A stretch of DNA of 64,000 nt from Asterochloris sp. CNOR1 (Eukaryota > Chlorophyta > Trebouxiophyceae > Trebouxiales > Trebouxiaceae): positions 682,001 to 746,000 of the forward strand of contig OZ017759.1 in assembly GCA_963969365.1 (NCBI GenBank), given 5' to 3'. Both the position numbers and the translations under genes were made by a program. Positions 2,620 through 59,510 of the stretch are shown here, one piece after another. How positions within the stretch are numbered: position 1 is the first letter of the stretch; every line of letters starts with the position of its first letter. Under the pieces are notes generated by a model. That model searched no databases and was not told the origin of the DNA. It saw only the letters and a program-made list of their open reading frames with translations.

Positions 2620-5600
2620 TCAAGCATTTGGACCTGCAGGATGCTTATGTCGCATGCTGTCAATACCACATGGGGACTGCAGCAGGCTGGCGTCTGCACA
2701 GCACTCCAGCAGGACCTGCTGAAAGGCTGCAAGCTGGCCAAGAGGGCTGTCAGCCCCAAGCAATGCAGATGCCAGCCACTGAAGGAGAACTTGGTCAATC
2801 TGAAAGTGAGCCTTCATGTCTGTACTTTGCACAGCTGGTTTGGAGACGCTCCGAGCCATCATGGCTGAGCCCTGATCTGGCTGAACTGAGGAAGTTTGCT
2901 GCGACTGGCCAAGCCCCTCAAGCCCTTGCAGGTCATTATTGACCACCATAAACGGCCTCAGAGCTAACACCAGGCAGCTCAACAGGTGCAGCTGCAGCCC
3001 AGGGAGCTGCTGCACGGCCTGCGCTGCTGCATCACGGCTGCTGGAGTGCTGCTGGTCGGGCTGACCATCTGCAGCTGCGCTGATTGCTGCCGTGCGGCAT
3101 GCAGTAGTCCACCCTGCCAAAGGGGCAGGGTGGAACTGCTGCAGCCACAGCCTCAACAGTTGGAGCAGGACGGCAGGGGCTGCAGCCTCCATGCCTGAGT
3201 AGTCCTCGTCGTTCACCTGCGCAGTCTATGTTGTCAGCGCCTTGCTGCTGGCTCCACACCAGACTCTCGTAAAGTATTGACCCAGACATGACTTGGCAGG
3301 CAGGTAGAACAATTTGGGTGCAGCACAATATACAACCACCAGGCTCGCAGTGCACAGCCCCTGCAGCAAGCAAGTTTCAGAGCCCACTCACCTGGCATGC
3401 AATGGCCTGCGCTGAGCCATAAGCCGCCTGGAGGGCTTTGTCGCTGTGGTCATCCGTGTGTGGCTGCAGCACCACTGAAGCCGCAGCTGCCACCTCTGGC
3501 ACGGGATGCTGCTGCAGGGCGGCCGTCAACAGCGCCAGCACCTGCCAGCACAGGGGTGCATGTGGTGCCCAACTGATACAGAGCAGCACTTCTGTTGGCT
3601 GTTGTCCTGGCTGCACGTGATAGCCTGCATGAACCCGCCAGCACAGCAGCAGGTGCTGTGCCTTGCCTCCCTCACATACATGCATGGGCAAACAGAACAG
3701 TCAGAGGGCAGTTGTGCCTTTGGGCTGGGGAGTGGGCCGCTCCACTGTGGCCTTGCACTGCCAAGCACCAGACCTTGGGGATTCCGCCAGGAGCCGCACC
3801 TCTCTGCGCCCTGTTGCCAACTCCCACTCTCACCTTGGGTACCTGCCAGAAGCGCCGCCCCTCTGCCCCGTGCAGCAGCCTGCGCTGGCGCTGCATGGCC
3901 TCCTCAAGTGTGGCAGGGGGCTTTGGTTGGAACAGCGGCACGGCATTGTGGCCACCGCTGCCAATGTGCAAAGGGCTGCCCCCCTGGGGTGCCAGGCGCC
4001 CTGCCTCTGTCCAGAGGGAGGCTGAGTCATGGGAAGCCTCTGCCGCCAGCTCCTCCCCAGCCTGCATGGGGAAGCAGTAGGACTGCATTGATGCTGTGGT
4101 GTGAAGTGAGCAGTGGCACGCCACCTGCTGCCAGCCTGCAGGTTGCGCTGCTGCACCAGCATGGGGGCTCTGAGAAAGGCTGCAGGACACAACCTGGGAT
4201 GAGTCAGACCTCTGCTGCCAGCCTGCAGGGAAGGCAGCAAAGTGAAACCCTGTATGTGACAGGTTGACAGTCCTGCCGGGAAGGTAGATTAGAATAAGCT
4301 GCAGGGCACACGTAGCTGGCAAATCCCCGAGTCGAACAGGTGGATATTGCAGAAGCAGATGGCGTGCTGAAGCTGGGCAGCAGCCGTACCTGGCCCCCAT
4401 CCCGTCCCATGCCATCACCAGTCTCTAGGAGAGCTCAAGGGAGACCATGATGTCCAGCGGACGCGGAGACAACTGCAGTGTGCCGCTTTGAAGGTGGGCC
4501 CTGCTGCCTTACAGGGGCAGCATGGGAATGACTGGAGGCTAGGACTCACTCCAGGGAGCTGGGCCATGCTCACCTGCTGGCGCACAGCTGTCTTGCTCAT
4601 CACTCCCACAACAGAGCTGCTCTGCAGGCGGAACACGCTGCTGAAGAATGACTCTGCCCGCTCCTCAGTGGGGCCGGCTGTACCGCTCAGCTCCAAATCA
4701 GAAGAGTGGAGGTGACTGCTGCCAGACGCCTCAGCTCCCAGAACCTCTGCTTCAGAAGGGGAGCTGAGCGGTTCGGCAGGGTGAGCCTCAGCCCTGCCAG
4801 AGCTGTCGATCGCGTCAGTGTCCATACTGGCGGCAGGGGCTGCTGCAGGAGGGTTCTTGCCAGAGCCACCAGCTCCTGTTGCGTCGGCATCATGCTCAGT
4901 AGACGCCAGAAGCCTCTGCTGGTCCACATAGGGCGCTGGCTGGGCAGCAGACGCTGCAAGACAGCTAGCGCCTGCCTTCTCTGGTGAAGTCGGCTGGTCT
5001 GGTGCACCCGGCGGCTGCCTGGCTGTGCGCCTGGGGCTGTTTCCAGGGTTGAGTCTCGAGCCGGGCCGAACCTGCTCTGTGCTCTGGCGGCCAGCAGGCT
5101 GTTGCAGACCACAGCCACTAGCAGACGCTGCACAGGGCTCCCTGGCTGTACTGTGGGCCCTGAACACACATCTGCAGGCAGGCAGGACATCGTGGTCCAA
5201 ATTGGTCAGAACTGCGGTTGTAAGCCTGCAGAGCGTCAACAAACCACTCCGCTGGCATGCCCCCTGCATGCTGCAACCGGCACACGCATTGCTCAAGGAC
5301 TCGGAGGCCCTGCCAGCGTCTGCTCAGACCGGGGCAGGCAGGCAGCAGCAATGTAGCTGCACAAAATCAGCCCATCGGACGCTTGCACAAGGAAAAACAG
5401 GCCGGCTGAGGGCACCTCTAGTGGAGCAGTGCTCCTGCAGCCCCATGTTAGGTGGCACATGTGTGGCATAAAAGCTGCAGCTTTCAAGCAGCAGTTCAGT
5501 GCCCTTAGCCAGATTGGTGCCTTGTGCAAGCAATTGTGCAGCTACATTGCAAGCAGCCACTGGGCACAAGGAAGCGTGCAGCAGAGCGTGCAAGGTAGCA

Positions 5601-8225
5601 CAGATGGTACATCAAGCAGCAGTTCAGTGCCCTCTGCCAGATAGCCCCTGATGCTTGACACTGCCACGCCAATCTGCGATGGCAGACAGAACCTGACTGA
5701 GGTGGCACCTGTGGTGCTCGTCAAGCTGGAAACCCCCAGCCCCCACCAGGCACCGTATGTACCTGAGGCTGCCAGAGTCTTCAGGGCCCCTCTCAAACTC
5801 GCAGGTTCTTGTTGGCAGCAGCACCATGTGTCTCACCTGAGGTGGCGCAGGTAATGCTCAAACACCTCCACAAAGCGAACCTGCTGGCGGGTCTGCAGGG
5901 CCCCAGGTCGCCCCTGTCTGACTCGCACCACTGCCTCAGGGCCGCTGCAGGCCCCCCGGAAGACAAGGAAGCAGGCGATGGCCAGCCTGCACAAGCCAGG
6001 CAGGGATGAGGTGCCTGCCCTGGCGCCAACAGCTGCTCATGACCACCCTGCACGGAGCCAGCTTGCATGAAGCAGGCAGGCACAGAATTCAGCCATGCAT
6101 TTGGGTTTACTGCCTTGCACCAGAAGGCATGCAGGCAAACTCACGCAACAGCCAGGCTCACCCTGTGCGGCCAAGGCCAGCGTGGCAGTGCACAGCGATC
6201 TTACGCCCCTCCACGTCTGTGACATGCGCCATCACCTGCACACAGGCGCTCATGCTGCAGCATGCTCTTTCAGATTTTGACTGCGCCATCCTTGTGCTGA
6301 CTGCTTTGTGACGCAGCTACAGTGGCGTCTGCAATTGTGGTGGCGGCATCCCATGCCTGGTGCCCCCGCCACCCACTGAGCGACTACGCGAAGAGGAACC
6401 CCCTTGGCAGATTCTGCCACAACTCTGCAGGCTGGCCTGAGACGACAAGGCTGCACGCTGTGGCTGCGCCTGCCTGTAAGCTGATAAAAACCTGACTGCG
6501 GCCGGACTGGAAAGGCAGCATATGTGATGTAAAGCAAAGCAAAGGTGGTATCCACGTGATGTCTGCCCCATGCGCACAACCATCACCGTGCAACATGAGA
6601 TTGGGCAGTGTGGCACTGGAGCTGCATTGTCCCCTGAGGTTCAGCAGGCCTGTCCATCACAACCCTTTAAGGTGTTGCCGGCTCCAGCAAACTTGCTTGA
6701 GCAAGCTGGAAGTCAACCCCCTGCACTGTGTCATGCAGCGGCCTGGGCCATAAGTGTACTGAGAAGAAGTATTGGTGCTCCCAACTTGACAACTGACTGG
6801 GCCACCCGGCTTAGCCTGAACTCACAGTAGCCTAGATGCACTGTGAACTGTGCAGTGTGAAAACTAGATCCACCTACCGACGTCTGTGATGCCATGGAAG
6901 CTGGGGCGCCTCATGTTGCACACACGACCCATGACCCCAGATCAGCAGCGCATCCCCAGAGTCCAGCTCTGAACCCTGCCACAGACCCCAAACTCCCACA
7001 ATAGACCCACCTGCACGATCTCCAAAATGCGGTGCAGGCTGGGGACGCCCATGTCTCGCCAGCTAAGGTTGTACACTCCAATGCCGGCCACCATGAAGGA
7101 CTGGGGGTCGTAGCTGAAGCCACTGGCTGCCACGTTACCCCTTCCGCAGTGGGCGTGCTCGCCCACTTCCTGCAGTAAGTGCAGGCTGTTCCATGACTCA
7201 TTGAATGGCGCTGCTTCCGGGTTGCCATAGGTGGTTGCTCGCCTCCTCCTGCAGCGAGGGCAGGCAGATGTGTTGAGGAGCGGCACAGCTCTGCTTCACT
7301 GCTCCTGTCATGGTGAGCATGCTCAACAACCTACTGTAAGAAATGCAGGCAGCTTGACGGCTAGCACAAGTGTTTCTACCATGTCGCCTGTGCTGCACTG
7401 TGAGTGCTTGCCAACCTCCTGCAGCGTATGCAGGCCGCTGAAGGGACTAGCTGATTCCTTCGGGCCATCCCACTGCTGAAGTAACAGTACTCCCCAGCCT
7501 CTTGCAAGCTGCTGAACCACGGGCGCAAGCTGCGAAATAAAAGGCGGAGCTCTCCTGCCTCGTGCCTCAGCTGCTTGTGTGCGCTTGACACCCTTCTGCG
7601 CAGGGCTCAGATGTTCTGATGGAGGCAGCATGTTTGCTGCTGCGCATGCATAGGCCATTAGAAAACCCAGGCTGCCCACCAAAAAAGCTTTGCTCGCAGC
7701 AGCACGCATTGCCCAATGCGTGTTTGTTAGGGCATGGGCAGCAGTTTGATGGAGCCGAGCACAAGGCAGGTCATGGCAGCCTGCTGACACTTGATGATTT
7801 GAGCAACACCAACATGACCTTTCAACGAAGGTCCTGCTGCTGCACGGCCGGGCTGCTGCAACTCGTGCAGGCTACCCAGTGTAGCTGAGAAAGCCTCACA
7901 CCTGAAGGTTGAGGACCATGCCAATGTCTGCTGCTTTGAACTGCTCTGGAATACGGTGCTGCTCCACATTGCACTGCCATGGACGCGCCATTGCCAGCAC
8001 CTGCAGGACAATTGACTGCATGGAGAGGCATGTGTGCAGATACACTTAAACGGTGAGCCACCTGTTTACCTGTTCAGTGACCCAACTGGCGTGCAGGCCA
8101 GCAAAGGGACTTGGGAATTTTTGAAAAGCTGGATCCTCTTTAGTGCACCTTCCACCGCCTGCAGCAGACTCTTTTGAGTCAGCAGGCGGAAGACAGCAAG
8201 CTGTGTATGATGTAAGCTTGTACAT
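2620..8225 (-). CDS. PTPDC1-like dual-specificity protein phosphatase
   Basis: Exons read on the minus strand are 8225-8070, 8000-7902, 7169-7011, 6235-6162 and 5986-5837; later exons to 2620 are placed only roughly. The first five join in phase. In order they give a GGGRCTKEDP region, FAGLHASWVTEQ, VLAMARPWQ, MVLNLQEVGEHAHC, a general-acid loop around YNLSWRDMGVPS, and the active site HCHAGLGRTG with catalytic Cys and Arg. QTRQQVRFVEVFEHYL closes the domain. The order and wording match animal PTPDC1, as does RQRRLLHGAEGRRFWQVPK near 3,850-3,930. Between lies a Ser/Ala/Pro-rich insert at 4.5-5.2 kb. In animals PTPDC1 is linked to centrosome and cilium control; its role here is inferred. It is convergent with the Fic gene, which ends 208 bp away. 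Confidence 0.85.
4055..4310 (-). repeat. Second acceptor-echo array in the phosphatase gene
   Basis: The exon that starts near 4064 (minus) reads QAGEELAAEA after its acceptor. Copies of the acceptor and exon start recur with CCTGCA at 4135 and 4222 (exon site 4061), spacing 74 and 87 bp, reading AGWQQVA and AGWQQRSD. A weaker one lies near 4302. Confidence 0.6.
7165..7510 (-). repeat. Array of decayed acceptor/exon-start copies in a phosphatase intron
   Basis: The exon starting at 7169 begins after CTGCAG with a sequence reading EVGEHAHC. In the 732-bp intron before it, similar acceptor-plus-exon starts recur with the site at 7249, 7334, 7419 and 7502 (exon site 7170), a spacing of 79-85 bp. 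The copies read roughly LQ-stop-VVEHAHHDR, LQEVGKHSQC and LQEAGEYCYF, so they are degenerate, and one carries a stop. Confidence 0.75.
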
Positions 8226-8902
8226 TGCAACTCTAGGCAGGCGCACCTTCACACATGCACTGTACACGTTCTTTGGCCAGAAATGTGGCTGAACCAGACA
8301 GTGAGTTCTCCTGCAAAAACATCTCGACTGTCTGTTGCATCAGATATGTCTTTGTGTGTTTCGTGAGCGAATCACTATGATGAACTCACCGTTGTTGCCC
8401 ATGGAAAATGGGGCAAGGGTGCTGAGATGGCATCAGTTCTGCTACTGCAAGCTCCCATGTTTGAGTATGGGCCCAGTGCTGGTCGTGACCTCATTTTGTA
8501 TTCATGCAGCTTAGGTCATTATATCACATGCTATGTGACACCCCGCAACATGTCATTATATCACATGCTATGTGACCTCCCGCAACATGTCATGATATCA
8601 CAGGCCATGTGACACCCCGCAATATGCTGCCTTGTTAGACCTGCAGGTCTTGTGACAACCCTCCCACGAGATCAGGCCCAGGCTGGAGATCGATGACATC
8701 TTTGCAGCATATGAAGACTATTACAGGCGCTGTCTGAAGTGCTGAGCAGGGTTCTGAGAGCCACCAAAACTTCAAGTCCCCATCCAAGTTGTTGCAATTG
8801 GCAGCCAGTAGGCTTAAGGTGAGCCCCTGTCTCAGAAGGGCAACATACATTTCCTGAATTGATGGGTGCCAAACACAGAGACATCCACACAAGATGCAGA
8901 TA
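8226..8902. other. Spacer between kinase-like and phosphatase genes
   Basis: No coding exon is recognised. It holds the presumed promoter of the phosphatase gene at its left end (that gene starts at 8225 on the minus strand), the presumed 3' end of the kinase-like gene at its right end, and a 37-bp tandem repeat. Confidence 0.5.
8515..8625. repeat. 37-bp tandem repeat, three copies
   Basis: The unit begins GTCATTATATCACATGCTAT and continues with GTGACACCCCGCAACAT. Copies start at 8515, 8552 and 8589; the third differs at several bases (GTCATGATATCACAGGCCAT). Each unit contains the imperfect dyad TCACATGCTATGTGA. Confidence 0.9.
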
Positions 8903-11659: not shown

Positions 11660-11939
11660 AGTGCCTGCACCAGCAAGACCATAGCTGCGAGCAGAACTTG
11701 TTGAAGCGGAAGAAGCTGTGTGCTTGACAGCAGATGTTTGCCTCCACCAAGTGCTTCACTACGTGACATGACAAGGAAAGCAGGCCCCTTGACCAGACCA
11801 ACATGGCAAGCATGCTCAGCAATGGCTATCAGCGCGACATGTTGGTTGATGGATGCTGCAGCCCAATGCGAAGTGATGCTATGCAGGCTTCATTGTAGCC
11901 TTGATTAGCCCTTCACCTCACCTTCTAAGGCCACTCACC

Positions 11940-14320: not shown

Positions 14321-14403
14321 CCTGGACCGGAATCCTGGGCATTGTCCCTCCACAGTCTTGGATCCACAGTCACTTCAACCCCAGGCTCAGCATCTGCCCC
14401 AGC

Positions 14404-17253: not shown

Positions 17254-17274
17254 AAGTGCCCTGGATCAACCTTC

Positions 17275-37487: not shown

Positions 37488-40400
37488 ATGGCAGCAGCAA
37501 TGGCAGCAGCTCAGCATGGCGCCCTGGTGGTGGCCTCTCCAAGACCAGCCGCAGCAGGCAGGCTCCTCTTACAACCTTTTGCCTGAGCCTTGGGCAGTTT
37601 CCAGGAATACGCCCCACAATCAGTGCAACAAATGCCACATGACATTTTGTGCGCATCACACACAACATGCTGATATGCTCCATACTGCCATCGTCAGTCT
37701 GCAAGCGGACCGGCACACCTCACACCCCATGGCGCAGGGTTTGCTGCAGCAGGCGTGTTTCGCAAGCAGCCCAACCTGGCGCCCCTGCTCCCTCCCCTGC
37801 AGCAGCAGCAGCAGCATGGTGCCTCTCAGCAGGGCCGCCAGCCATCCAAGCATCAGCCAGCACAGTCCCGTCCAGGGCCAGGGCTGAGCCCTCAGAGGCC
37901 AGTAGTAGTGCAGCAGTGGTCGGGCCGAAGGACTGGCACCCACAGCAGTGATGGGACAAGCCCCTGCCTGCCTCCTGGAGTACCCCTGGCGCCCTGTACA
38001 CCAGCAGCACCCCGCGCTGCTGGCGATGCTGCAGTGGTAGAGCAGCTCAGGCGGGACCTGAAGCGCCTCTTTCCTGGTGAGCAGGCAGGCATGGTCACCT
38101 GCTTGTCATGTCAGTGTCTGAACGCATCTGGGTGGCCGCATTTTGCCTGGTCGCAAACTTGATCTGAGCCAGAGGCAGTGATTGAGTAACTTTTGTGGGG
38201 CCTAAAGCGCCTCTCTTCTGGTGGGCAAGCAGGCATCGCCATGTTGTGTTTGCAGCTTTGCAATTAATGTAGGCAGGCATAGCCACCTGCTGGAACAGAT
38301 GGTCTTTGCATGTCACAGGGCAAGGTCATCCTATTGGACCACACACGGGCTAGCATTGGCTTGTTCCGTGTCCATACAGTGCCTGCCACGTGAACCAGGA
38401 GCAGCTCATGAGGCCAGGTACCTGTGGACAATGAACAAACGGGATTATGTCCACATTGTGCCTGACACCAGCCTGCCGCTGCCATGTGGTCTTGACATCG
38501 CCCATTCTCGTCACTGCAGATCGCACCCCCCAGCGGCAGGCACTGCCTCAGCATCGTGCCCTACAGCACTCACAGTCGGCGCCCTCCTCCACCACAACCG
38601 CAGCAGTCAGCGTTGCAGCAGCAGCAGCTGCAGCAGCCCCATCCGCTGTGTCGCTGATGCACAGCCTGCGACAGCCCACAGGAACACAGGCACTGGCAGT
38701 GCTCCCGCGGGGGCCGCCCAGGCAGGGCCTGCTGAACCCTGCAGACCTTGGCGCCGCCAGCCAGGGGAGTACTGTGGCAGAGGGCAGCATGGCCACAACC
38801 AGTGGCATCATTAGGTGGGGTGGCAGTATGTGCAGCCAGGTACCATTTGCTCCTGCTTGTGCGTGCCTGCAGAGCCTGGCTCGGCCTCTGTGTACAACAG
38901 CGCTGGTTCCTGATGCACTGCTGTCATCCAAACTGCCACCTACTTGAAGCCAGGCAGCCATATGCAGGCACCTAGACACTCAGACAAAGCTGGACTGTCT
39001 TTATGGTGCCCATGCCCTGGCTGCAGACCCCCGCAGCCGCCGCCACTACCACCTGCGCCGGTGGCCATGCCTCTCACCTTCAACTGTGAGTTTGAGGGTG
39101 GCAACTTTGCAGAGGCGCGCTGCCTGGTGGAGGGACAGGTGGGCTACTTGTGCTCACCCGCCCTGCAAGGACAGCCCATGATGTCTGGTTCAGACACCAC
39201 TCCAGGTTACGGCATGGCACCAAGCTGTGTGTGCACAGCCAGCTGGAAGACACCAGGACAGCCCTGCCAACCCGCGAGATCATGAAGTGGACCTACATTG
39301 AGGCAGTTTGCCATCGTCCCATGGGTGTTGACCCGCTGGCATGGCTGGCATGGCATGCCATGCCAGCAGGGCTGTCTGGATGGACAACCTGTTCAGCTGC
39401 GCGCCTCTGCCTGGCTGGCGGTTGTTTCCCTAAGGGAAAGGGTCGCGGCTGAACACAGCGTCTGTGCAGATGGCAAGGCAAGGCTCACAGCTGCCTTCCA
39501 TGTTCAGCCTGTACCGTGTCTTGCTGCCAACCCTCACTTGGTAGGCAATGGCTCCTTGCTGTCTTCATCGCCAATGCTGCCCTGGTGCAAGGTAACATGC
39601 ACATGTGCAGGCGGCCTTCTAGTGGCGTTTGCTCCAGGCAGTGCTGAAGTTGCCAGATCATGCCGTGCAGGAGTACGACATCCTGGTCAAGGAGGACACA
39701 CGTGCGCCCAGGCATCGCCTGTGGTTCCATTTCAACATGGCGGGGGGCGTGGCAGGTCATTGCAGCCCTGCCTGGGCTGCTCCACATCGTGACACCCTGC
39801 CAACACAAATGCCGCTAGTTTTGACTTGGATATGTTTGTAGCAACAGGCGGTTCCCCACAAGGAATGGAGCTCAGGGCAGCTGCCAGCCTTGGTAGACGC
39901 AGCACCTGAAGCCTGTCCCTGGCAACAAGCAGAAGGAATGCTGGCATTGCATCAGCCCCATGCTTAATCACAAGAATGTTGCTAGACATGATGAAGCCCT
40001 TGGTGCCTGACAGCTCCATGCCCAGCATGCCTGGTCAGCCCGGCACCACGGCCCAGATTGCTGCAGCAGCATCCTGCTGGGTGGCAGCCACAACATCCCA
40101 TCTCAGCATCCTTCTTGCAGCTGCTGGCTCGATGGGCATGACTCCCTACTCAATGTTTCTCCAACTCCCAGGGCAACTTCGCTGAGCTTGCAGCACTTGC
40201 TGCTGGCGACTTTGAGTAGGCTGCCCAGGCTGACCTGCCTGGCTGCCATGTTGCCTGCAGGCCAGCAAGTGATGCTGCAGGCTGTGCGCTGCAGCGAGGT
40301 GCTCATCACCTGCCGTGTGCTTTACCGGGCAAGCGATGGTTCCAGATACGGTAGCAAGGCTGGTCAGCCTGATTTCTCCCTGGCTGGGCAGGTGGTGTGC

Positions 40401-43615: not shown

Positions 43616-46600
43616 TCAGGCTTTCTGTGCCGGGGCAGCTGCAGTCCTGGCGCCAGGCGCTGCCCCGCCCGCTGACAGCTGCTTGGCACGTGCATCATGC
43701 TGCTTGGCCAGCTTCTGCGCACGGTGCTTGATGTAATCCCTGTCCACCACACCGTCCCACTCTGCACCAGGCTCGCCTGCAGCAGCACAGTCAAATCTCC
43801 CTGCATGCTGTCGTGGCCACATGGGACACATCAGCCAGGATTAAAGTGGTGTGTCCCACAGCTCCCTTCAGCAGCGCTGGGGCAGGCAATGACAGTGCCT
43901 GCCTGCAGCAGTCGCACCATGAGCAATGCCTGGCATGTCTGTGGTGCAATGGCTGGGGCAGTGCCGGCAGGCTAGCCAGCAACCGGCCTGTGAGTGGCCC
44001 ACTCAATGCCTGCAGGATGGCAGTGGCAGCCATGCATGCAAAGTCCCCGGCCCCAAGCAGGCATGAGGGACCCCATAACCCAGAGTGCAGGCTCTGAGGG
44101 CTCCCAGCTGTCATCTTGTGGTTCTTGTTGCTGTCAGTGTGGCAGCAAAGCCCCAGGAGCCAAGAGCAGGGCAATCGAGACCTATCTACCTCCATTGGAT
44201 TAGCAGGGAGAGCTGTCGCGAGCTTGCTATTTTGCATCGTCATTAGTGCTCAACCACTGAAAGCCAATGGCCCAAGGACAGTGTGGCCCTGGGACTACAC
44301 AGCCTTCACAACCCTCATGATGCCCCAGAAGTTTGTGCATCATAGACGAGGAGTAGTTGGAGCAGGCTGGGCTCATTCAGGCTTGCTTCACTTCAAACAA
44401 AAGCCTGTCGACCAACTGAAGCCAGTGACTCACCTGGCTTCTGCTCCTCCTTGTCGCTGTCACTGTCGTCCACAACACCCCCCACATCCCCATCTGCGCC
44501 CGTGTAGCCCAGCACCCGAGTGAGGTCAGGGCCCTTGGCAAGGGCATCCTTCTTCTTCCCCTTCTTTCGCCTCATAGCCAGCCCAGGCGCCATGATCTGC
44601 ACAGAGTAGCAAACCTATTGGTGAAGCCTGCAAGACAGCATGGAGCGCCACGCACAAGCCAAACATGCTCAGCTCTTGCATCTGAACAGGACAACGAGGA
44701 TTGTAGTCTTGAGTTCTTGCCCAAAGTGGTCCTATCTGGTCCCAAGCTGCAGCCAAATTGCCGGTTCCGCATAAGGACAGAGCTGCTAGCTACACAGCCA
44801 CCACCAGATTCATTCAGCAGTCTTGTGACCCTGAGACAGGGCAGCCGCAGTCTCAAAGCTGGGGCTTACATGGCCGGTGGGGGTGACGTTGTCCATCCAG
44901 GCTGGGCCAGTCCAAGTGCGACGGCGGAAACCCTTCTGCAGGGTCAGCCCGCTCTGGGGGTGCGCATCCTGCAGCTGGGCAGCTGCAGCCTCTGACTCCT
45001 CATCCACCTGCAGCATAGCAGGCAACGGTGTGTCTTTGCTCGCACATTTTTGTTCTCTGGTCTGAGAGACATGTAGGCTGGCCTCTTAACCCCTCCTCCA
45101 CCTGCGGCACAAGAGGCAGACCAGGGAGTTGTCTGCAAGAGCAGCACCCAGACAGGTGTGTCCACTTGTCTTGAGTGGCCACGTAGGACCACCCCAGCTT
45201 AGTAGAGGGCAGAGACTACCACGGCCCAGCAGACCACCCAAATCGCGTCTGCCAGGATGGCAGGCACACCTCGACGCTTTGCATGAGTCCAGGGCCAGTG
45301 CAGCCAATCAGGAAGCTGTGCCAGCTCCAAACCCCAAGCTTTGCTCAAGACCAGGGCAGATGCAGCCAGTCAGACACATGTGGCAGCTTCCCACTGCATG
45401 CAGCGCTGCAATCAGGAGCCTGTCCAAGTAGCAGCAGGGATGACTTGAGCTGTTCCACACCCATGTGCGAGTACGTGCCAGCTCCTGTTGCCCACCCTGT
45501 GCAGTGCTGCGATGAGGCGCCTGACCAGACCCAACCACGAGCGCGTGCCAGCTCCTGTTGCCCACCTTGTGCAGTGCTGCAATGAGGCGCCTGTCCAGGT
45601 CCAGCAGGCGGCGCAGGCGGTCGGCGCACTCGGCCAGCAGAGTGGGCAGGTCGGGGAAGAACTGGGCGTCCTCGATGGTGTTGCCCAGCCCATCGTTCAC
45701 CCTGGCCGTCACCACGCCCGACGGCTCTGCAGCACAGCCACTGTGTGCTCTCAGGCATCAAGCCTCAACTGCTGCCCTAGCAGGCTGGGGCAGCCTGCTG
45801 CTTGCCGTGGCCACTGCCAGACCCATAGCTCTGCAGCAGGGACGCTCTTGCTGCCACAGCTTGATGCCTGCCAGGTTGTGTGGCCTCTAAAGTCCCCAGT
45901 AGCTCTACATTCTACGACAGAGGCAGTCAGGCACGCGTACCCTGCCTAGAAACTGCATGGCAGCAGGGCCCAACACGAACTGCCAGTCCACAGCTCCGAC
46001 TGGACAGTGCATGCAGCCAACAGCTGATGCACAAAGTTCCCCGGCTAGCGGTCAAACTCCCAGCTCCTCCTTGGATCTTCTCAACACCCCAGCCAGCACA
46101 GCTCCCAACTGTCGGCAGGGCATTGTGCTCAGCAGCCTGTGTGTGATGTTAGACCTGCGAAGTCTCTGGTGCAGGCTGCTGCTGCCCCAGACAAACACTG
46201 TAGAGTGTCCCATGTAGCTCGGAACGATTGACCCCGGTAAAGTCCAATCTGCTAGCAGGAAGCTGTGCTCTCGCAGCAAAGCTGACCTCACAGCTGCTGT
46301 GAGCACTGTCCAGATGACCTTGGACAAGCCCCCACATCGCTGAAGACAACCTGCCAGCAGCGCTTTCAGACCAGCAGCCAGGCCTGACGCTTGAGCCACA
46401 CAGAGAAACACCACGCTGTAGCCTGCAAGGCGCTGCACTCTGCAGTCAGGCCTGACTGTGCAGCTGACCGCTCCCAGGCTGGAGTCACCCAAACTGACCC
46501 CACACAGGCCCCACCTGCCGGCAGGGCTCCGCGCTCAGCAGCCAGGTTGACCTCATAGCTGCGGCGGCTCTGGCGCAGGCTGCTGCTGCGGGACCCCAGG

Positions 46601-49600
46601 GAACGGCGCTCCTGCCCCGGGGCGGGGACTGCCCCGCGCCCGCTGTCGCCACGCGTCAGGCGGCGGCTGCTGCTGCGGGACAGCTGCGCCACCGCCCGCT
46701 GACTGGCCGCGTCCTGCAGCGCGCTCTGCAGGCGGACGCACAGCGAGCGCAGGCCCTGCAGGTGCACTGGGTGCTGTTGAAGAGGCGAGCGGCTTGCAGT
46801 GCGAGCTCGAGGCAGACAGACAGTGATTGCAGACCCTGCGGGACACCGGATGGCATTGGCACAGCGAGGGGTGCAGTGCGCCCTTTAGACGCACGCATAC
46901 CAAGCGCAGCCGCTGCAAAGGGAGACACAATCCTGCTTGACTTATTTGTCTGGGCTCTGCAGCACACTCTCCAAACACAGCGAGCGCAGACCCTGCAAAT
47001 GGAGATGAGTGTTGGCTTCCTTTGAGCAGCTTTGCTCGGCGCTCTGGAGAGCAGGCACAGCAGGCGCTGTGGCCCTGCAGGCACTTGAAGGGTCCGCATT
47101 GTTCAAGCAGATGGCCTGCAGCGCGCTCTTCAGGCGCATGCACAGCAAGTGCAGGCCCTGCACGGTGAGACAAAGAGTTGGCTGGGTTGGTGGCCTTGCT
47201 GTGCGCTCCAAAGAGCACCTGTACAGCAAGAGCGCTGCAGCCCTGCAGCAAGACAGAGAGCCGCATCTCTCTGGACGCCTCTCAGCAGCAGCTCTGCGGC
47301 CTACACAGCAGATGCAGGCCCTGTGTGCACATTGGGTGACCATGCATCAAGTAAGGGCCACACACTCTCCAGACGAACTCACAGAGAGCATCAGCCTTAA
47401 AAGGATGTCCTTTAGATGCAGCTGTACATACAGGAAGCGGCAACACCCACCTGCTGAGCGCTGATACACACAGTCCGCAGCTTGTTGAACTTCTCCTTAG
47501 CTGAGGCCATGCGCCGCCGGGCATCATCAATCTCGCGGTCATAGGTCGCGTAGTCGGGTTGGCCCTCCCCGGCTGCATTCTGAGCTTCAAACATGTTGGA
47601 CCGTGACTGCAGGAGGTGCACCAGCTCCTGCTTGGCCTGCGCCTCCCGCACCTCCGCAAGACGCACCAGCTCCCGCATGTTCTCCTCCTTGGTGCGCAGC
47701 CCTGCATGGGGGACGGGACGTGTTTCAAAGCCAGCAGTCTTGGCTGTGTGGTGCCCTTGGGAGACTACTGCAGGTACCTGACTGGCAAACAAGGACCTGC
47801 GCAACAGGACAGCAGCTGCTGAGAGTCTGTGCAGAGTTCTCATGCCCTCGTGCACAGCTCTGCAGGGGGGCAGAAACAAGGCGCTGGGGCCACCTCCTGC
47901 ATGTTCACCCCCTCAATGCACAGGCCTGCAGGACAGGATCAGGTCGCTGGGGGCTGCCTGATGGCAGCTTGAGCAGCTGAGAAGAGCACAGTGCCGATTT
48001 CAGCGTGCAGGCGTACAGGGTAGCAGACAGACATTGTACGGTGCAGCAATACAGACCTGCAAAAGTGTGGCAGACTGCAGGGCAGCGGCAGGGGGTGCAT
48101 CACGATACACTTGCTGCTCTGGGCTGCCCCTGCTTGTACACATCGACCCTTTCAGGCAAGCATAGGAGGCAGCCTGCATTGCCCAACATGAGTGTGCCCT
48201 GCACTGACTCGACTCACCCTCCCAGTATGATATCACCTCCTCAGGCGTATCTGCGCCGCTGATGCTGTGCAGGCGGTACCAGCTGGCCTCCATTGCCTCC
48301 AGCTTGGGCTGCAGCGCCTGCAATGTGCACTGCGAAGTGAGCACAGGCCTGCACAAGGCATCTTTGCTGCAATTCACAGCCTCATTGAGCTGCAAGGTGG
48401 AGAACACAGAGCGTGCAGCCAGCCAGCGGCTGCAGAGAGCTCCAGCCACAGCCCCCCTTTGGGAGAGTCTGGGGCTTGCAGTCGCGACTTTGCAGTATCC
48501 ACCACTCACACAGCAGGCTGAATCTTGATGCACAACCTCCCAGAGCGCTCCTCTTGATCTGGTTTGCAGACAGCCCTGTATTGTGTTGCCCAATCCTGTC
48601 ATCTACAGCTCAGCCTCCTACGCCTGCTCATCAAGAAGCCAGACTGGCCTGGCAGTACCGGCACAGCGATGTCCTCCCTACTGTCTGTGCACTGCAGGCT
48701 GAGCACTAAACACAGCTACGCCTCAATTTTCCGTATCTGCAGCTTGGGCTTTGCAGCTGGCCCATGTGCAGCGTGTAAAAGGGTCCCAACAGCTGCTCTA
48801 TTCCCCTCACTTGCAGCTTATCTTCATACGCCTGCTTTTCTGCATCCACATGAGCCTCACGGTCCCTGTCTCTGCATTCGTGTTCTGCAGATTGCAGACA
48901 GCTGTGCATCGCAGTGCGTCACACATTCACCTGCAGCTGGGCCTCATATGCCTGCTCCTCTGCAGCCACTCGAGCCTGACGGTCCTTGTCCGCACGCTCG
49001 CGCTCTGAGGTGCGGGCAGCTCTGGTGGCCTCCTTCTCTGCCTCCTTGCGCTGGCGGCGCTCCAGGTCGTGCACCTGCATATGCAGTTCGCTAATCTGAC
49101 AGCTGGGCTACCTTATATTGGAGGGTGAAAGCGAATGCACTGAAGCCAAAGGTGCTTCACACTGACAGCGCTTCAGGGCCTGCACTCACAAGCACACATC
49201 TGATCAACTCATGAGACAGCTGTCACAACAACCCACGTCCTTGTATTGGCTACATAGCTTGCAGCCCAGCTTGGCCATGCAGGACAAGAATGTTTCCCAA
49301 TCCTTAAACCACTCATAATGTAAATATCATTATGGGGCAGCCACAGGTTCCCAGGATGATCGCTAAGGTGATGCTGTTCTGAAACGCACCTTGCGTCAGT
49401 TCTTCAGCTTGGTGTGGTGTTTCTTAGCCTCCTCATGCATCCCTGCTGAAGCCAGCAAAACTCCAGCAACAACCCACCCAACTCATGACATATGCCAGAT
49501 CAGCAGCATCCAACCTCCTGGCACGACACCTTGCAGCTTGCAAACCTAGTCCTTCACAGCCTCCTTGCACCTCGCCATTCCCTTGCCCTCCCTCCCACGT

Positions 49601-52600
49601 AGATGCCTTTCGTCCATACCTTCCTTACATGCGGATGAGACAGATCACGCATGTAGACGATGCACCCGTCCGTCTCTCAAATACGCTGAAAGCATGGTTG
49701 CCCACCTCTTTGCGCCGGTCCTTCAGCTTGCGGTGCCAGTCCTTCTTGGCCTCCTCGCACATCTTGCGCGTGTGTGCCAGCTCACGCTCAGCGTCCTCCT
49801 TGGCTGCCCGCATGTCGTGCATGTGGCTGGTCAGCACTGCATGGTCCTCCCCATAGGCGTCCTGCATCTCCCTCGCGATGCGCACCTTGTTCTCCATCGT
49901 CATGTGCTCCCGCCTGCGCCAGAAGATTGAGCTTTTGAGCACAGTACAGCATAGAGCAGAACACTGCGGCATGACCCGCACTGCAGTTGCTTTGAGCTGA
50001 ATTGCGATGTGCTCAGGCCTGCACGGCAACCAAGTCGTTGAAGTCTTCCTTGCATGAGGCGCGCCTTCATCATGCGATTCCACCTGCTCACAGCGTGCTG
50101 CCGCAGGTCCAGCTCTTTGCATTACCACCTGGTTTGCTTTGTATGGTCACCTGCTTCGCGTTGCTACTATTGTTGTTGAGCCAGATGCCAGCTGCACCCA
50201 CCATCTGAATTGTCTGCAGCCCTGTAGGCCAATGTTATGCTCCATCTTGGACACCTTCCTGCTCTGCCTTGCGGATCCTGTTGACCAGCACAGTGCCACC
50301 TGCATCCCTGCCAGCGACACTGGCTGCTCCCAATCTTCACATTGCATCAAAATACCTGACCATCTTCAATCCCTCATGCACACCTGGTTCGCTCCCCCAG
50401 AAGACTGTACAGCCTGTTCTTAGCCTCAGCCTCCACCAACTCCTCCTCCAGCACCTTCTGCTCATCTTGTAAGGCCTCGACGCGAGCCTGCTCTGTGGGC
50501 TGCTCCCCCGGCATGAGCACCGCACAGTCGCGACTGGTGACACTCAGGCGTGATATCTGGTGCTCGAACCGGCGCGACTCCTGCAGTGCGCAGCACATTT
50601 GTAAGCCCACAGCAGCAACAAAAGCCATGGTGGGCTTCTTGCAGCGACGAGAACTCCGGCTGTGCAAACGATCAGCTGAGGGTGTCAGGGGTGTCATGAC
50701 AGCCCAATCTTGGCCCATGAAAGGTGCATGTGCAGGGCATAAGCAGTGGAGCTGCAGGTCTATTGCATGGATGCAATCTTGTTGTCTGATGAGCTTAAAG
50801 ATGTGAAGTGGTGGTCCCTGGGACCCACATGATGACGTGACAGTCGACTGCTGCTGTCACAGCAGGGCCCTTCCTGCAGTCTCATGCTCCATCAGGCGTA
50901 CCATAAATGAGATCATCCAAGTTCTGCAGCTTGACCTCTGCAGTACGGCCACCAGCTATGCCGGCTGCTGCGCTGCATGCTCGCACTACCTCTTGCGTGA
51001 TGTTGCGTCAGAATTGCACCCGGTGGGGCTTGAGCCGCTTGAGCAGCTGAAGCTCAAGCTCCTTGGCCAGACAGCATGCTCACCTGCTTAACCGCCGACC
51101 TTCAGCAGCTTATGATGCTCCTTACAGCCCACTCACCTCTCAGGCAATGTCACACCCCTACGCGCCGACTTGAGCTCGTTCAATTTTCAGCAGCCTGCCT
51201 GCTGCAGGTGCAGCGCTTGAGGCATTGAAGTCTGGCACCTGCTGCTGTTGAGCACAGCCTACCTGCTGCTGGGCTGTGGGCAAGGCAGGGGCTAAGCTGG
51301 TGCCCCTGCAGGCGCAGCAGCAACAGTTGTGCTGGACAGCGACCCTCCACTTGAGGCAACAGCGTACCCTCTTGAGCTCATTCAGCTTCTGCAGCTTCAG
51401 CTCGAGCTCCTTGCGCAGGCGGCGCACATCCTCGGCCTGCAGCTCACCCCCGGCCTTCCCTGAATCGGCCTTGATCTGGGCCAGGGAGGCCATCAACTGG
51501 GTGCGCTCCTTCTTGACTGCCTCCAGCTCCATGCGCTGCACGCAGGCAGTCGCAGTGAAGGGTGAAAACAGAAAGTTGCAGACACTCCTGACTACCTCCG
51601 TGTCCGTGTGCTGCAGGCAGCAGACTTCTAAGCATGTGGAAGGCTCTCCAGAATGGTTGGCGCCATCATAGAATTTGCTTCGGCTGGACTGCAACCGGCT
51701 TTGTGCGCCGCAGGCAGACTGCCGGTGCAGCTCAGGCAGCACTCATTGTGGAACAGGGGGATGCAGTCGTCCTCGGCGCCCGCCAGCTCTGCGCGCTGCA
51801 GGCAGACAGCTTGTGCAACACAGACAGCGCTGATTAGGACATCCCCAGGATTCTCCTTGTTCTCTGCAACCAACTCCAAGTGCTTCTGGCAGCAGGAGGG
51901 ATAGTGCTGTTCAACGTGAAGATGGGAGTTTGCTGCTCGCAGCAACTCTACCTCATCAGAGCTGCTGCACGTCAGAACTTCCTCTGACGAGCCCCTAAAC
52001 AGGCCAGCCTGCTTAGGGCAGAACATCTCCTGGGGGGCCTGCAATGGCATATCCACACAACTATCAGCACAGGCAAGCTGCCTCACCAGCTCGTCCTCTT
52101 CAGTGAGCTCGTCATCAAACCCCAGCGGGTTGTCCAGGCCCCCCTGCGCGCCAGCGCTTGCAGGACTGAAGCCTGGGCCCACCGCTGTGAGAGTCCCGCC
52201 ATCGCCAGCAGGATCAGGCAGCTCCTCTCCCATGAGCTTTGCCAGCTCAGGCGCTGACTGCAGGCAGATGGCAGGGGCCTCAACACTGAGCTCTGTGCTA
52301 TCGAGCCAAGCTCCTTTGTTCTGTCGACCTCCGCCCTAGACTGACTGTGAGCAGGGAACAGCTTGCTTGTCAATGGAGGCTCTCCCAGGCTACAGCACAG
52401 GCGATAGCCGTTCGCCCTCTTGCATGAGGTAGGGTAATTTGGGGCCGGCTGCAGGCAGGGAGCAGCGTTTTCAAGGGGGTGAGTCCCCCAAGCTGGCGTA
52501 TACGCCGCAGCTCTCTGCTGCAATGTGGACCAGCTCGGAGGCTGACTGCAGGCAGCTAAGGAAATGCCCAGCATGCTATATCAACAGACAGTGCAGTTAG

Positions 52601-53786: not shown

Positions 53787-56700
53787 ATGCCGCGGGAGCT
53801 GGGCCCATTCAAGATTCGAGAGAAAGTTTTGGTTCCTCATACAGACAAGTACTACGAAGCCAGAGTGAGCCAGCAGCATGGTCACTGTTGACGCTGTCAG
53901 CCGGCCTCACTCATACTCTATGCATAGACACACTCATGGTGTGTGCGTGCGGCTGCAGGCCCTGAAGTCAGACAAGCGGCCCGACGGGGAGTGGTACTAC
54001 TTCATCCACTATCCTGTGAGCCCGCATAGCAAGCACGATTGCCGTCGAGCACAGCTCTGCTGTCTGGGACCCAGCAAATGTTTTGTCTCAGTATCCAGCG
54101 GAGCTGCTTGCGCCACAGTGCAAGAGGCACCTGACTTCCGTGCACAGCCTCTGCTGCTCAACTTTGCTGTGCTCAACAAACCCCGGCTGCAGGGGTGGGA
54201 CAAGCAATATGACGAGTGGGTGGTGGCCCGCGACCTGGTCAAGTGGGATGAGAAGCTGCTCAAGGTGGACCTCACCAAGGAGTCCACTGGTTTGCCCCAG
54301 GCCATGGTGGAGGGAGAGGTAGATGAGGACGGCTCAGGCAAGTTCTGGAAGCCTTGGCTTGCTGTGAGTGAAACAGCAGGCTGGCTGCTACTGGAGGGCA
54401 CATCCAGCTGTGGCAAGTGCAGGTCATTCAGTGCTGAGCAGGCAGAGGATGGCTTGTGCGATCTATGACCTTCCAGCACCTCCCTGCATGGCTACCTCCT
54501 GGGAGCAGATCACTTTATGCTCATTTGCCTGTGGGCACTTTTGCCCCGGGGCGTTGGTGGAGGCAACGAATGGCGCAGCCAAGAACAGCCCTTGCCTGGC
54601 TGCTGCATGAGGGCAGCCTCATCCTGCAGGCTGTGTGCTTTCTGTCTGGAGTCCCTGAGCAGGGTTGCAAGGCTGAGGCATGCATCCCAGCAGCCTGGGG
54701 CCCAGCAGACTCAACAAACATGGCAGAAGCAGCAGCAGGTGCCCTGCCCAGCGCCTCTGCCCTGCGGGCCCTGCCCAGCCCCATGCGGCGCTACTGGATG
54801 TGGCTGGTGCCCAGGCTGAGGCATGATCGCCATCAGAGATCATCTTGAAGATCACAAGCGCCTTGCCCTGCAGGGCCCCCACATAGCCGCTGGAATCAGC
54901 TCAGCCTGGTGCACGCGTGACCAGCGTTTCTGCTGTGCAGGTCTTGCTCAGGCGTCCACAGTGCCACTGGACCAGGGCAGCGTCCAGGCTGAGGGCTTGA
55001 GCCCCTCAGAGGCTGTCAGGGAGATGGACTCGGCCTGCAAGCGCAGGGAGCGGGACAGGGAGCGCCGCAAGCGCAAGAGGGAGCAGGCTGCTGCAGTGGC
55101 CGTTGCAGATGGGACCGCACTGCACGTGAGTGAGGCTGGCTGCGTAAGCACAAAGTGGCTGCTGCAGGTGTCACAGATGGGACTGCACTGCATGGCAGTA
55201 GGTCTGTCGACTTTAGATCAGGACTGCATTGCATGAGTCAGGGACTGCCTGTTGTGGCCTGGCACAGACAAGACTTGGTGAGGCTGAACTGCAGTGCGAG
55301 TGCTGCATCCTGTTGCAGTGACTGCTGCAAACGTGACTGTGCTGCATGGCAATAGTATGGGCTGCACAAGTGGGAGCAGGCTGCTATGGCAGCGCAGGTG
55401 AAGGCGCAAAGCATGTGACTGGAATTGGTTGTGGCCTGCAACATGGCACCTGGCAGGAGGAGTGCACTCGCTGGGGAAGGCAGCAATGTGCTGCATAGGC
55501 GCTTCTGCATGAAGCCTGCTGAGCCGGTGTTTCGTCGGCATGAGCCTGTGTAAAGCAGGCTGCTCATCTGTGTATAGCAGGCTCCCCACTCCAAAACAGG
55601 CACCGGCTCTGGGCTGCCTGCTTGCCTGCCATAACATGTCACGTCAGGGCTGGCATTGGCCCTTGCATCAGCCTGCCTTCAGATTCTTTCGGCAGCTGTT
55701 CAGATCTCTGCTCCTGTCCCTTTAGCTGGTGCTGCTGATCCAGCATGAGGACTGCCTTGTTCCATACCCACCCCGCTGCCTCCCTGCAGCTGCCCTGGCT
55801 ATCAAGGCGGTGCTGTGAATGGACACATGGCTGTCGCACACAGCATGCAGTCGCCTCCTGTCCTGTTGACTTTCAGGGCGAGCTGGACCAGCCCCCACCC
55901 CTCAAGCTGGTGGTGCTGCTGAACAATCGCAATGCCATCACACTGCAGACTGGTTCCTTTAGTTCCTGCCCTTTTGCTTCTCAGGTGGAGCTGGATCTGC
56001 CCCCACCTCTCAAACTGGTGTTGCTGAACGACCACGACGCTGTCACCCAGCAGGGCAAGCTGGCGCCTGCGCCGCGGGAACCTTGTGTGGACCAAGTGCT
56101 CAGCCAGTATCTGGCGCAGTGCAGCGGCAGCGCAGACCAGCAGCATGAGGTGCGCTCAACAGGGTTGCATGTCAGCCACCAGCATACCCTCTGCTGACAA
56201 GGCCAAGGTCTCTGCAGGGCTGGTGAGATGAGTAAACCTTTGCAAGTTGACAAGCCAGCCCAGGCTGGTGAATTGCCAGGCATTCCCCAGGGCAGGGAGG
56301 CCCAAGAGCAGGATCATCAGCATGAGACAAGCTGAGCAGGGTTCTGCATGTCAACAAGCGGGCTTACGCTGCTGAATGTTGAGATGGGCTGACTCGCATG
56401 CAGGCTTGTGCCTGCTGCAGTGCCTGCCTTGGTCAGCAGCGTGACGTCCACTGACCGCCTTCACTGCTGCCATGGCTGCGTTGGTCAGCAGCAGGACCTC
56501 CACCATCTGCCGCCCTGTGGCTGCCAGGCACCCTGTGGCTGTCAGGCAGCCTGGGGCATCATCTTTAGGGCTTTTGCAGTGCCCCAACATCTGGCCTCAG
56601 CTCGCTGTCCTGGCTGCCCCTGTGGTGCTAAGCTGTGACAGTGTTGCCTGCAGGTTGTGTATGGTGTCCAGCAATACTTCAACAAGGCATTCCAGCACTA

Positions 56701-57216: not shown

Positions 57217-57353
57217 AGCTCTCTGGCATATTCCTGTATGGCATGTGTGAACGGAGCCAGCCTAGCCACCCTCTCGGCCTATCAGAAGCACTTCCAAATT
57301 CCTGTAACCTTCAACTGGTTTAATGGGAGCGAAAGGGGTAGCCCCCCCCAGGC

Positions 57354-59510
57354 CTAATTAGAGGGTTGGGCTGGTCTACCAGCTTCAGGTGCAGGAGAGG
57401 GGGGGGCAGTAAACATGTTGCTTGTTAATAGGGGGGTTTGGCGGCGCTCCATGTCAGCAGCCCACAATGCTGCGCCAACTGAATTGCTCAGGGCGAAGCC
57501 CCAACTGATGACAGGCAGTGTCTGCAGAAGTGCCACCGTCATGCCAAACTGGCGATACCGCATCTTGTTGGAGTCTATCACAGCCGCCTGCGTGTGCACA
57601 AGAGGGGCTGAAGGTTGAATTGGTGTGCAGCACAGGCTGTTGTCGGCCTTAGAGCAATATTGTAGAAGGAGGGCATTATGGCCAAGCAGCAGGCTTCAGC
57701 TGCCAGTAGCACAGCAGGAAGCAGAGGCACATTGCAGCAGCATAGAGATGTCAGCAGCAGGCAGTAGCTGCTATGGCAGCCAGGCAGGCAACAGCATCAA
57801 CTCAGTCGCCTGCCTGCCTGTCTGTCTGTTGCTGCCTTCTCGTAGCAGCTTGAGGCACTATGTGCTTCTCCCCACACCACCAGGAGCAACCTCACCTGCT
57901 CGTCTGGGGAGGGCAGCCCCTTCATGAGGAAGTAGGGGGCCATGAAGGGAGCTGCCAGGTTGTGCCCGCCCCGCACTGAGAAGAGCAGGGGAGCGAAGGG
58001 CACCACGCTGGTCAGAGGAGATGACACCAGGTGGATGGCCCCCTTCCTGATGATGTAGCTGGCCAGGCTCTGCATACAGGGTGGGAGAGACACGCAATAA
58101 ACGGCAAGGCCAGCGTATCCAAGGTGTGGGACATGGTATGCCACGCCGGCCAGGCCCTGCATCAAAATGCAAAGCATGAGACGCAGAGCTGGCCAGGCCC
58201 TGCAAGGGCAGGATGAGAGGGACAAATGCAAAGCTGGCACTGACTTCTTGCAAGACTTAAGTGAGGATGAGTGCGGTGAGCCTGGCCACTTGACTTGGAA
58301 GCCAGCCTGGCCTGCAGAGATATGCATGAGTGTAAAGCAATGCCGTCACCAAGTCAGTCTCCAGCTTGAGCGATGCAGCACAAGCATGCAGCACGTAACA
58401 TGTGCAGGTTGCATGGCAGGTGCTATTGGAAGGGGCCTGGGGTTGAGCACAGAAGCAACAACAGCACCTGCGAAACCACAGTACGAATGGTGCTGTGCAT
58501 GGTAAAGCTGAGGCTGGCCCCTTCAGACAACCCGAGCTGCAACACTGTGCAGGAAGCCATGGCAGGCCACCCACCCCTGCAGACTGCCTCCTCTTGCGCC
58601 GCTCCTCTTCGATCCGGGCTGCCTGCGCGTTCAGGAAGGCATTGATCTGCTGCTTCTCTGTGGGGGTCACCTGCCTCACCGGGAGGACGCCCTGGTCTGC
58701 AGGCAGCATGGCAGCAGGGTGGTCAGCCATGCTCAAACAGGCTCTGACAGATGGCTGTCTGCAGGAGTTGCCTTGATGTAGTGGAGCCAAGTCTGCAGGC
58801 TCTCGTGTGGCGAAATGGCCGGTTCAGGCTTATATTGCTGCCCTGCACTCTCAAGCCTGCCCTGCATGCAGTGCACACCAAAAGCGTGTCTGTAGGAAGC
58901 AAGTGAGCGGCATGCTATGCTCCTGCTGCTGCGTTGGTGACAGTCAGGAGTTCCTGGCTATGTGATGGTTGCGCTGCTGTTGGACAGACTGATGTATCGC
59001 TCGGGGAGGAGCTCGACCTGAGACGGTCTTGGCGGAAAGGTACGGTGCTGGTCATCATGCTGCGTATTGGCCTGGCCTGTGGGGGTGGTGAGTGCTGCCC
59101 AAGCAGAGATGGCGTCAGCCTAACCTCAGCACCAACAACCCCCACCCAAGTCTTGGCACCTTGCATGACGTCCTGGAAGATTGATCGCTGCAGCACGCGC
59201 AGGGAGTGCTGCGCCATGAGGTAGATGGGGAGGGAGGCCTCTCCCAAGATGAGCAGGCAGGTTGTGATCTTGGCCAGTAGTCCCCTGCCCACCAATCCAC
59301 TCACTGCCAGCAGCTGCCTGTGCCATGTGAAGTGGGCAAGGCCCCCCATGCCTACCACTGAGGCAACAGTGATGCCTCCCAGAAAGCCTACAGGCAGGCA
59401 CAACAGACTGTGAAGACACGAGAATGTTGCTTGGTGAGCGGCCTTGAGGCTTGCAAGCCCTTGAGAGGTCTTGGAGCCAGGAGCACATTGCTCAGCAGGT
59501 GCAGAGCTCA
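57354..59510 (-). CDS. Multi-pass membrane protein (tentatively EI24/CysZ/RRT8-like)
   Basis: Minus-strand coding blocks in order: about 59,400-59,150 (GFLGGITVASVVGMGGLAH, then LLAKITTCLLILGEASLPIY and LRVLQRSIFQDVM), about 58,690-58,590 (PTEKQQINAFLNAQAARIEE then a basic run), 58,068-57,900 (SLASYIIRKGAIHLVSSPLT, FAPLLFSVRGGHNLAAPFMA) and 57,599-57,430 (MRYRQFGMTVALLQTLPVIS then WGFALSNSVGAALW), stop at 57,354. Four or more hydrophobic helices are visible. The final helix preceded by an Arg-rich turn resembles the C-terminal part of EI24/CysZ-type proteins, but the match is weak. The start codon and exon borders are not fixed. The gene is convergent with MRG (137 bp between stops). Confidence 0.5.
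58055..58315 (-). repeat. Acceptor-side echoes in the membrane-protein gene
   Basis: On the plus strand the exon start and acceptor GCTGGCCAGGCTCTGCATAC (58,059) recurs as GCCGGCCAGGCCCTGCATCA (58,144) and AGCTGGCCAGGCCCTGCAAG (58,188), with a weaker one near 58,300. Translations read QSLASYII (exon), QGLAGVAYHV and QGLASSASHAL. Confidence 0.75.

Follow-up and report, generated by a model that had tools for sequence, protein, structure and literature searches.

Why do introns of a green alga contain diverged copies of the exon edges that lie beside them? The question is raised by a stretch of 64,000 nucleotides from Asterochloris sp. CNOR1 (contig C14, 682001-746000; hereafter the window), in which an initial annotation had traced such copies, here called echoes, at 17 sites. 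Echoes are probably the remnants of direct tandem duplications across a splice junction, mostly of 60-200 bp. At 16 of the 17 sites a local copy scored above chance (p 0 to 0.0038), while the copy at site 4,061 did not exceed the null (p 0.13); copies were sought within 600 bp, the null consisted of 60-mers at unrelated places of the window (n=1828), and the p values are uncorrected for the way in which the sites had been chosen.

The sampled sequence comprised 344 kb of one 56.4-Mb, 21-contig Asterochloris genome, namely the window, 200 kb of contig C1 and eight 10-kb stretches from eight contigs, one of which adjoins the window. All comparisons were confined to this genome, the only eukaryotic one in the data set. 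A gene finder was trained on 304 kb and afterwards applied to 40 kb more. It returned the donor consensus CAG/GTGAGc and the acceptor consensus CTGCAG/G (junction at the slash) and, over the first 304 kb, predicted 633 introns of median length 232 bp. Pfam supported the homoserine dehydrogenase, MRG and zinc carboxypeptidase genes of the window and a CH-like domain in the SPEF1 gene. Moreover, the JGI Astpho2 proteins P0121 (MRG) and P0162 (ODA10-like) matched most of their exons in the window at 100% or close to it, and for the homoserine dehydrogenase P0001 six of the eight blocks aligned on the window gene were 97-100% identical. Astpho2 stands for Asterochloris sp. Cgr/DA1pho, with a published genome of 56 Mb and 9 introns per gene (PMC6652019).

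Local repeats are abundant in this sequence. Ungapped repeats scoring at least 20 at lags below 400 bp numbered 34 in the window and 0 at 300 random distant lags, and the independent 200 kb of C1 showed a like excess, with 0 at 150 distant lags. In the genome-wide echo test, 40-bp queries from the exon only, with the splice motif excluded, were compared with the adjacent intron, and 20 exon permutations served as control. This test returned 77 echoes in 55 of 619 introns, 30 on the acceptor side and 47 on the donor side, whereas the permuted means were 0.5 and 0.8. The echoes involve 58 exon edges; at 11 of these, at least three copies scored at least 12, and an unrelated edge met a single copy of this kind in 30 of 770 trials. 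The proposal of the initial annotation that an echo matches the exon adjoining its intron was thus borne out, as permuted exons gave a mean of 1.3 echoes. In the same sense, a score of 16 was reached by adjacent exons in 3.2-3.7% of trials, by non-adjacent exons of the same gene in 0.08-0.16% and by unrelated exons in 0.01-0.05%, figures that come from earlier gene models which had no minimum exon and were later replaced. Under those models, positions labelled intergenic stood at the level of the null, but the label covers 2,687 positions in models that make nearly everything genic and was not relied upon.

Echoes are also specific to one side of the exon. For exons of 60-200 bp, own-side echoes occurred in 29 of 636 comparisons and opposite-side echoes in 1 of 636. 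Exon starts were echoed in the upstream intron in 12/318 cases and in the downstream intron in 0/318, exon ends in the downstream intron in 17/318 and in the upstream intron in 1/318, and exon middles in 1/356. A duplication across the junction gives such side-specific echoes; random local copying would not. A position-matched repeat profile around the junctions of 221 of the 633 introns (high-confidence filter) showed local repeats scoring at least 16 at 10% of acceptors, compared with 0.5-2.2% in the exon interior 50-100 bp from the acceptor and 0.6% for the matched null at the acceptor. The highest similarity is at the junction itself, and deep exon sequence shows little. Upstream of the acceptor there is a trough at 20-30 bp and a second rise at 90-100 bp, where the copies sit; the donor side is alike but flatter.

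The ODA10-like gene offers junctions that are fixed independently of the gene finder. The 720-aa protein P0163, which comes from a contig of 2,679 bases, has an exact alignment with 13 exons separated by GT-AG introns; as the gene extends over 9.3 kb, we infer that the contig represents spliced RNA. Compared with 400 other exon edges, 9 of its 24 exon edges and 8 of its 12 transcript-fixed introns carried echoes at p<0.01. The clearest case is the intron at 46756-47450 (minus strand), fixed by the exact spliced alignment of P0163, which is a decayed tandem array with a unit of about 80 bp. Copies of the acceptor and exon start lie at 46835, 46912, 46992, 47074, 47157, 47320 and 47396, that is 80, 157, 237, 319, 402, 565 and 641 bp from the real acceptor, with scores of 12-34. 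They cover nearly all of the 695-bp intron, and two further score-10 matches out of register were not counted. The best-preserved copy is the one at 402 bp, so age does not simply increase with distance. The next exon (46515-46755, minus strand, transcript-fixed) is echoed in both flanking introns, from its acceptor at 46755 and from its donor at 46515. Among the ODA10-like positions listed initially, 51535, 51368, 48931, 46755 and 45566 are real splice junctions, while 46,552 is not a junction; it falls inside this transcript-supported exon, whose donor has echoes.

Three further copies in this gene, all on the minus strand, lie at other junctions. The exon end and donor at 45566 recur at 45468-45523 with a lag of 70 bp, as a full-length copy with 85% identity over 79 bp, and a second copy lies at 171 bp. 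The exon end at donor 48931 is copied at 48599-48632 (lag 328), with another copy at 120 bp. The acceptor region 51511-51545 recurs at 51586-51620 (lag 75), and this copy holds a decoy acceptor at 51610. P0163 splices at 51535 and skips 51610, whereas P0162 and the gene finder both use 51610, in agreement with the earlier expectation of exon-like decoys. Throughout the gene the transcript-like P0163 skips the echo copies, which sit inside single introns.

These observations suggest the following course of events. A direct tandem duplication across a junction would leave the gene with two copies of that junction. The outer one, next to the intact exon, would stay in use in every case, as is seen in the ODA10-like gene, and the inner exon edge with its splice site would become intron. 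Each duplication would lengthen the intron by one unit, and repeated events would build arrays. Within the inner copy, the part that stems from the exon would remain recognisable for longer, its exon twin being held by coding selection, while the intron-derived part would diverge in both copies. Duplications within exons would mostly be purged by selection. The youngest cases consist of a whole or nearly whole tandem unit (79 bp at 93%, 110 bp at 87% and 70 bp at 85% identity). Moreover, all six arrays with a period of at least 60 found by Tandem Repeats Finder in the 344 kb include exon bases under the gene-finder models, with exon/intron bases of 64/104, 60/223, 90/125, 5/206, 17/172 and 143/7. 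Flanks and codon positions were analysed in 39 of 63 echoes (intron part 15-150 bp). Echo mismatches were distributed over the codon positions as 163/141/195, and since all positions are affected, the copies are not maintained as coding sequence; we regard them as probably neutral.

Echoes are linked to intron length. For introns of 90-150, 150-250, 250-400, 400-600 and more than 600 bp, the echoes per edge amounted to 0.5, 1.4, 4.9, 8.9 and 15.8% (1/208, 5/362, 17/348, 16/180 and 19/120), with a null of 0-0.3%. The trend was also found when the target was limited to the 250 bp nearest the junction, where the rate was 3.5% in introns of 200-320 bp (a class whose target is partly shorter than 250 bp), 5.0% at 320-500 bp and 12.5% at 500 bp or more (Fisher p 0.007 for 320-500 vs >=500 and 8e-5 for 200-320 vs >=500). 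The median length was 500 bp for introns with echoes and 262 bp for all introns. Taken together with side-specificity and the young whole units, this length trend gives good support to the initially proposed lengthening of introns by tandem duplication across a splice junction, for a minority of introns.

The duplicated interval has a lower limit near 60 bp. At lags up to 200, a lag below 60 was seen in 1 of 79 exon-intron pairs and in 25 of 84 intron-intron pairs (p 1.5e-7, with overlapping pairs not independent). In simulations, crossings of 45-60 bp were detected about half to four fifths as well as longer ones, and those of 30-45 bp a fifth to somewhat more than half as well; therefore the gap is not explained by low detection alone. 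Crossings of less than about 60 bp may seldom be tolerated, the probable reason being that a complete splice signal has to fit into the interval. As separate observations, short-period repeats (<60 bp) include more young examples than longer units, and a 37-bp tandem repeat with three copies at 89% lies at 8515-8626 of the window, inside a predicted intron.

The decay of the copies was compared with neutral simulations, in which the identity profile, copied length and copy age were modelled for acceptors only. Over roughly the first 20 exon bases the echoes are 70-76% identical to the exon, and some 10-20 bp into the intron the identity has dropped to background. For 24 acceptor-side echoes it was 0.34 at -20, 0.43 at -10, 0.71 at 0, 0.76 at +10 and 0.57 at +30. 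A contiguous acceptor-crossing duplication with the exon nearly fixed, 0.12 indels per substitution and an age of 0.3 substitutions per site, which fitted best among six, gave 0.34, 0.43, 0.68, 0.75 and 0.56. An intron flank was visible in a fraction of 0.29 of simulated echoes, compared with 8 of 39 real ones; on this reading the flank was copied too and then decayed on both sides. Simulated events were detected in about 38% of cases at 0.3 and in about 8% at 0.45 substitutions per site, and the 9% of introns with echoes is therefore a lower bound. Most copies are old.

Several observations weigh against an origin of the echoes in such duplications or against its simplest form. The majority of junctions rest on our home-made gene finder. 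Copies within 600 bp scoring at least 16 exist at 11% of random window positions, compared with 1.0% for the null; the window is rich in local repeats generally, and single sites are therefore less remarkable than they look. The intron flank, still visible in those 8 of 39 echoes, fits old age and also other models. The floor has exceptions at 31 bp (stretch L022) and at 50 bp (33396), and the copied exon part has a median of 42 bp vs 54 bp in simulation. The initial annotation expected splice sites to be created continually, yet few copies are young: a score of at least 40 is reached by 3 of 58 edges, whereas a constant-rate simulation expects 36%. That simulation also overpredicts repeats in introns and deep exons relative to the junction; with uniform breakpoints it places introns above junctions, while the real order is the reverse at acceptors and about equal at donors. 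The simple constant-rate neutral model was therefore rejected on copy age and profile shape. An old-burst simulation recovers both the dip and the second rise, but in the real data the peak at the junction is narrower and reaches about twice the height. It seems that the rate fell, that junctions were favoured or that young copies diverge fast at first.

The alternative that survives best is that junctions are hot spots, either because duplication is mechanistically biased towards exon-intron borders or because of a past burst, in place of uniform duplication with selective survival. The height of the junction peak relative to the old burst with uniform breakpoints, the exon bases in all six longer-period arrays and the scarcity of young copies speak for it. 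Exon conservation by itself, however, makes crossing copies more visible, very few young events are available, and we know of no border-specific duplication mechanism; we hold this alternative to be possible but rather doubtful. Equally tentative is the historical picture in which tandem duplications of about 60-200 bp once hit exon-intron borders far oftener than elsewhere, made many of the longer introns and have since nearly stopped. If true, conserved exon edges would be a molecular record for counting and dating the growth of introns.

Local template-switch or end-joining repair might instead have pasted short exon pieces into nearby introns without a tandem event. In its favour, 9 of 13 echoes with an exon identity of at least 0.8 lack clear similarity in the flanking intron (z<=2). 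Such an absence is nevertheless expected under neutral decay, as 35% of simulated high-identity echoes keep their flank at 0.3 substitutions per site, and pasted pieces would not explain why starts are echoed upstream and ends downstream with 1 exception in 30, or why exon middles are almost never copied. Templated local copying is thus disfavoured by side-specificity, and we consider it improbable.

Still less probable is that the echoes are functional as alternative exons, recursive splice sites or selected decoys. In favour of this, the AG is kept in 6 of the 7 copies of the 46756-47450 array, and the MRG copy described below is open in frame. According to the initial annotation copies usually keep AG or GT; among the 60 of 77 echoes aligned within 3 bases of the junction, AG was kept in 15 of 21 (13.0 expected) and GT in 18 of 39 (22.9 expected from exon identity), which did not sustain this claim, and selection retaining splice dinucleotides was rejected for want of any excess over the neutral expectation. 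The spread of mismatches over all codon positions and the behaviour of P0163 point the same way. Chance arising from CTGCAG-rich composition (481 occurrences in 159 kb of intron vs about 50 expected from base composition) is hardly conceivable, as permuted exons met the same introns and gave 1.3 echoes in place of 77, and the exon-only queries leave out the splice motif. In the 344-kb sample CTGCAG stands at about ten times expectation in introns, an excess that seems to have no connection with the echoes. Its richness was also considered as echo debris and this was rejected, with no sense-strand excess (TGCAGG 283, CCTGCA 378).

How far do echoes extend? The initial description of introns as filled with copies was too strong: the threshold is passed in only 55 of 619 introns, and of 198.5 kb of intron 10.4 kb lie within the reach of the farthest echoes. 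Under the earlier gene models the adjacent edge beat all 20 controls in 8.9% of acceptor and 10.2% of donor cases (403 introns; 4.8% expected). The claim that the spacing clusters at 70-85 bp was weakened. Exact 10-mers at lags of 70-80 bp reach 15 times background in the window and 8 times in C1, a peak that sits on a broad excess from 20 to 200 bp, while echo distances are mostly irregular. Junction-to-echo distances range from 60 to 641 bp, plus the one at 31 bp, lags at the traced sites range from 50 to 466 bp, and clear spacing of about 80 bp was seen in the intron 46756-47450 only. The regime is real but not specific to the window, as echoes occur in 12 of 103 introns there, in 20 of 381 in C1 and in 23 of 135 in the eight 10-kb stretches. 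Echo frequency is uneven between the latter two samples.

Echo copies were located in other genes of the window as well. On the minus strand, the SPEF1 acceptor 36184 is copied at 36281-36310 (lag 109), with more copies at 224, 307 and 420 bp, the acceptor region at 7170 at 7395-7435 (lag 249) and that at 58068 at 58187-58224 (lag 130). On the plus strand, the carboxypeptidase exon end and donor at 38076 recur at 38197-38241 (lag 144), and the acceptor region near 40531 at 40239-40279 (lag 268), which may be intron or exon, the model predicting an exon at 40261-40362. The homoserine dehydrogenase gene, also on the plus strand, carries copies of the acceptor 34327 at 34206-34246 (lag 96), of the exon end near 31935 (JGI exon 31822-31935) at 32029-32075 (lag 114) and of the region at donor 33396 at 33427-33476 (lag 50); the last has an exon-only score of 14, just under the genome-wide threshold, and was not counted. 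In the MRG gene (plus strand), the exon end at donor 55125 is copied at 55174-55206 (lag 68), and the acceptor region 55964-56013 at 55856-55905 (lag 108), which is coding in P0121 and in the gene finder. Both open the exon at 55877, within the echo, whereas the initial annotation had placed the acceptor at 55985; the Pfam MRG match starts in the downstream copy. With its frame open, this echo (55877-56149; lag 108, 36 codons) may extend the exon in frame rather than belong to the intron.

Two coding features lie apart from the echoes. A predicted protein at 636-2557 of the window contains HPFSDGNGRL, which we take to resemble the Fic motif. In contig C19, an uninterrupted protein kinase match (G000:C19:10167-10916, E 1.5e-68) lies in a 713-aa open frame, while most of the remaining kinase matches listed for this genome are fragmentary. 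The Asterochloris genome report mentions a region that is poor in introns and carries virus-like genes (PMC6652019).

The lengthening of introns is usually hidden by the decay of their sequence. In the present case one side of each event is preserved in the exon twin, so that counting, placing and rough dating of events need no genome of a relative. The floor of about 60 bp is a natural measure of what the splicing machinery tolerates, and echo copies such as that at 51610 are decoys that mislead gene prediction. The initial annotation held such a regime to be undescribed. The type of event is in fact known from the potato RdRp gene, while the titles and abstracts of the literature searched describe no genome-wide intron growth by junction-spanning tandem duplication, and the main text of the Asterochloris genome paper contains neither 'tandem' nor 'exon' (PMC6652019).

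In potato RdRp, a direct tandem duplication took in the 3' portion of an intron together with the 5' portion of the exon, the copy inherited the branch site, pyrimidine tract and AG, and an 83-bp tandem duplication occurred within the intron too, as reported by Ma, Lan and Niu in 2016 (PMC4974935). The Asterochloris echoes likewise are direct copies with exon edge, splice site and intron side adjoining the original (flank visible in 8/39). The potato event is a single one that yielded a new intron, with the upstream exon copy remaining exon, whereas in Asterochloris 58 exon edges are involved and the inner copy lies inside an old, grown intron; a new RNA-supported intron, the outcome in potato, was not found in the one gene examined, the ODA10-like gene. 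Intron gain by tandem duplication of an exon segment containing AGGT was reportedly proposed by Rogers in 1989 and by Hellsten in 2011. This route shares with ours the short direct tandem duplication and the reuse of copied splice signals, but it expects an intron length of one unit and matching donor and acceptor flanks; such a flank match at score 14 was found in 0 of 616 introns (random pairing 0-1). Tandem duplications also alter exon-intron structure in Drosophila, where novel introns arose by sliding or tandem duplication (PMC2891723), and in human genes with internal tandem repeats at exon-intron boundaries (PMC2812944). As far as the cited passages go, these cases deal with introns at new positions or with alternative splicing and not with the lengthening of introns by decayed copies. 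Introners likewise cause genome-wide intron change, with green algae among their hosts (PMC9860276, in the part considered). They are described there as dispersed copies of one element, whereas an Asterochloris echo matches its own neighbouring exon, and in comparisons of exon edges with introns, unrelated edges hardly match the Asterochloris introns. While the event itself is thus known from potato RdRp, the many cases together in one genome help to show how introns lengthen.

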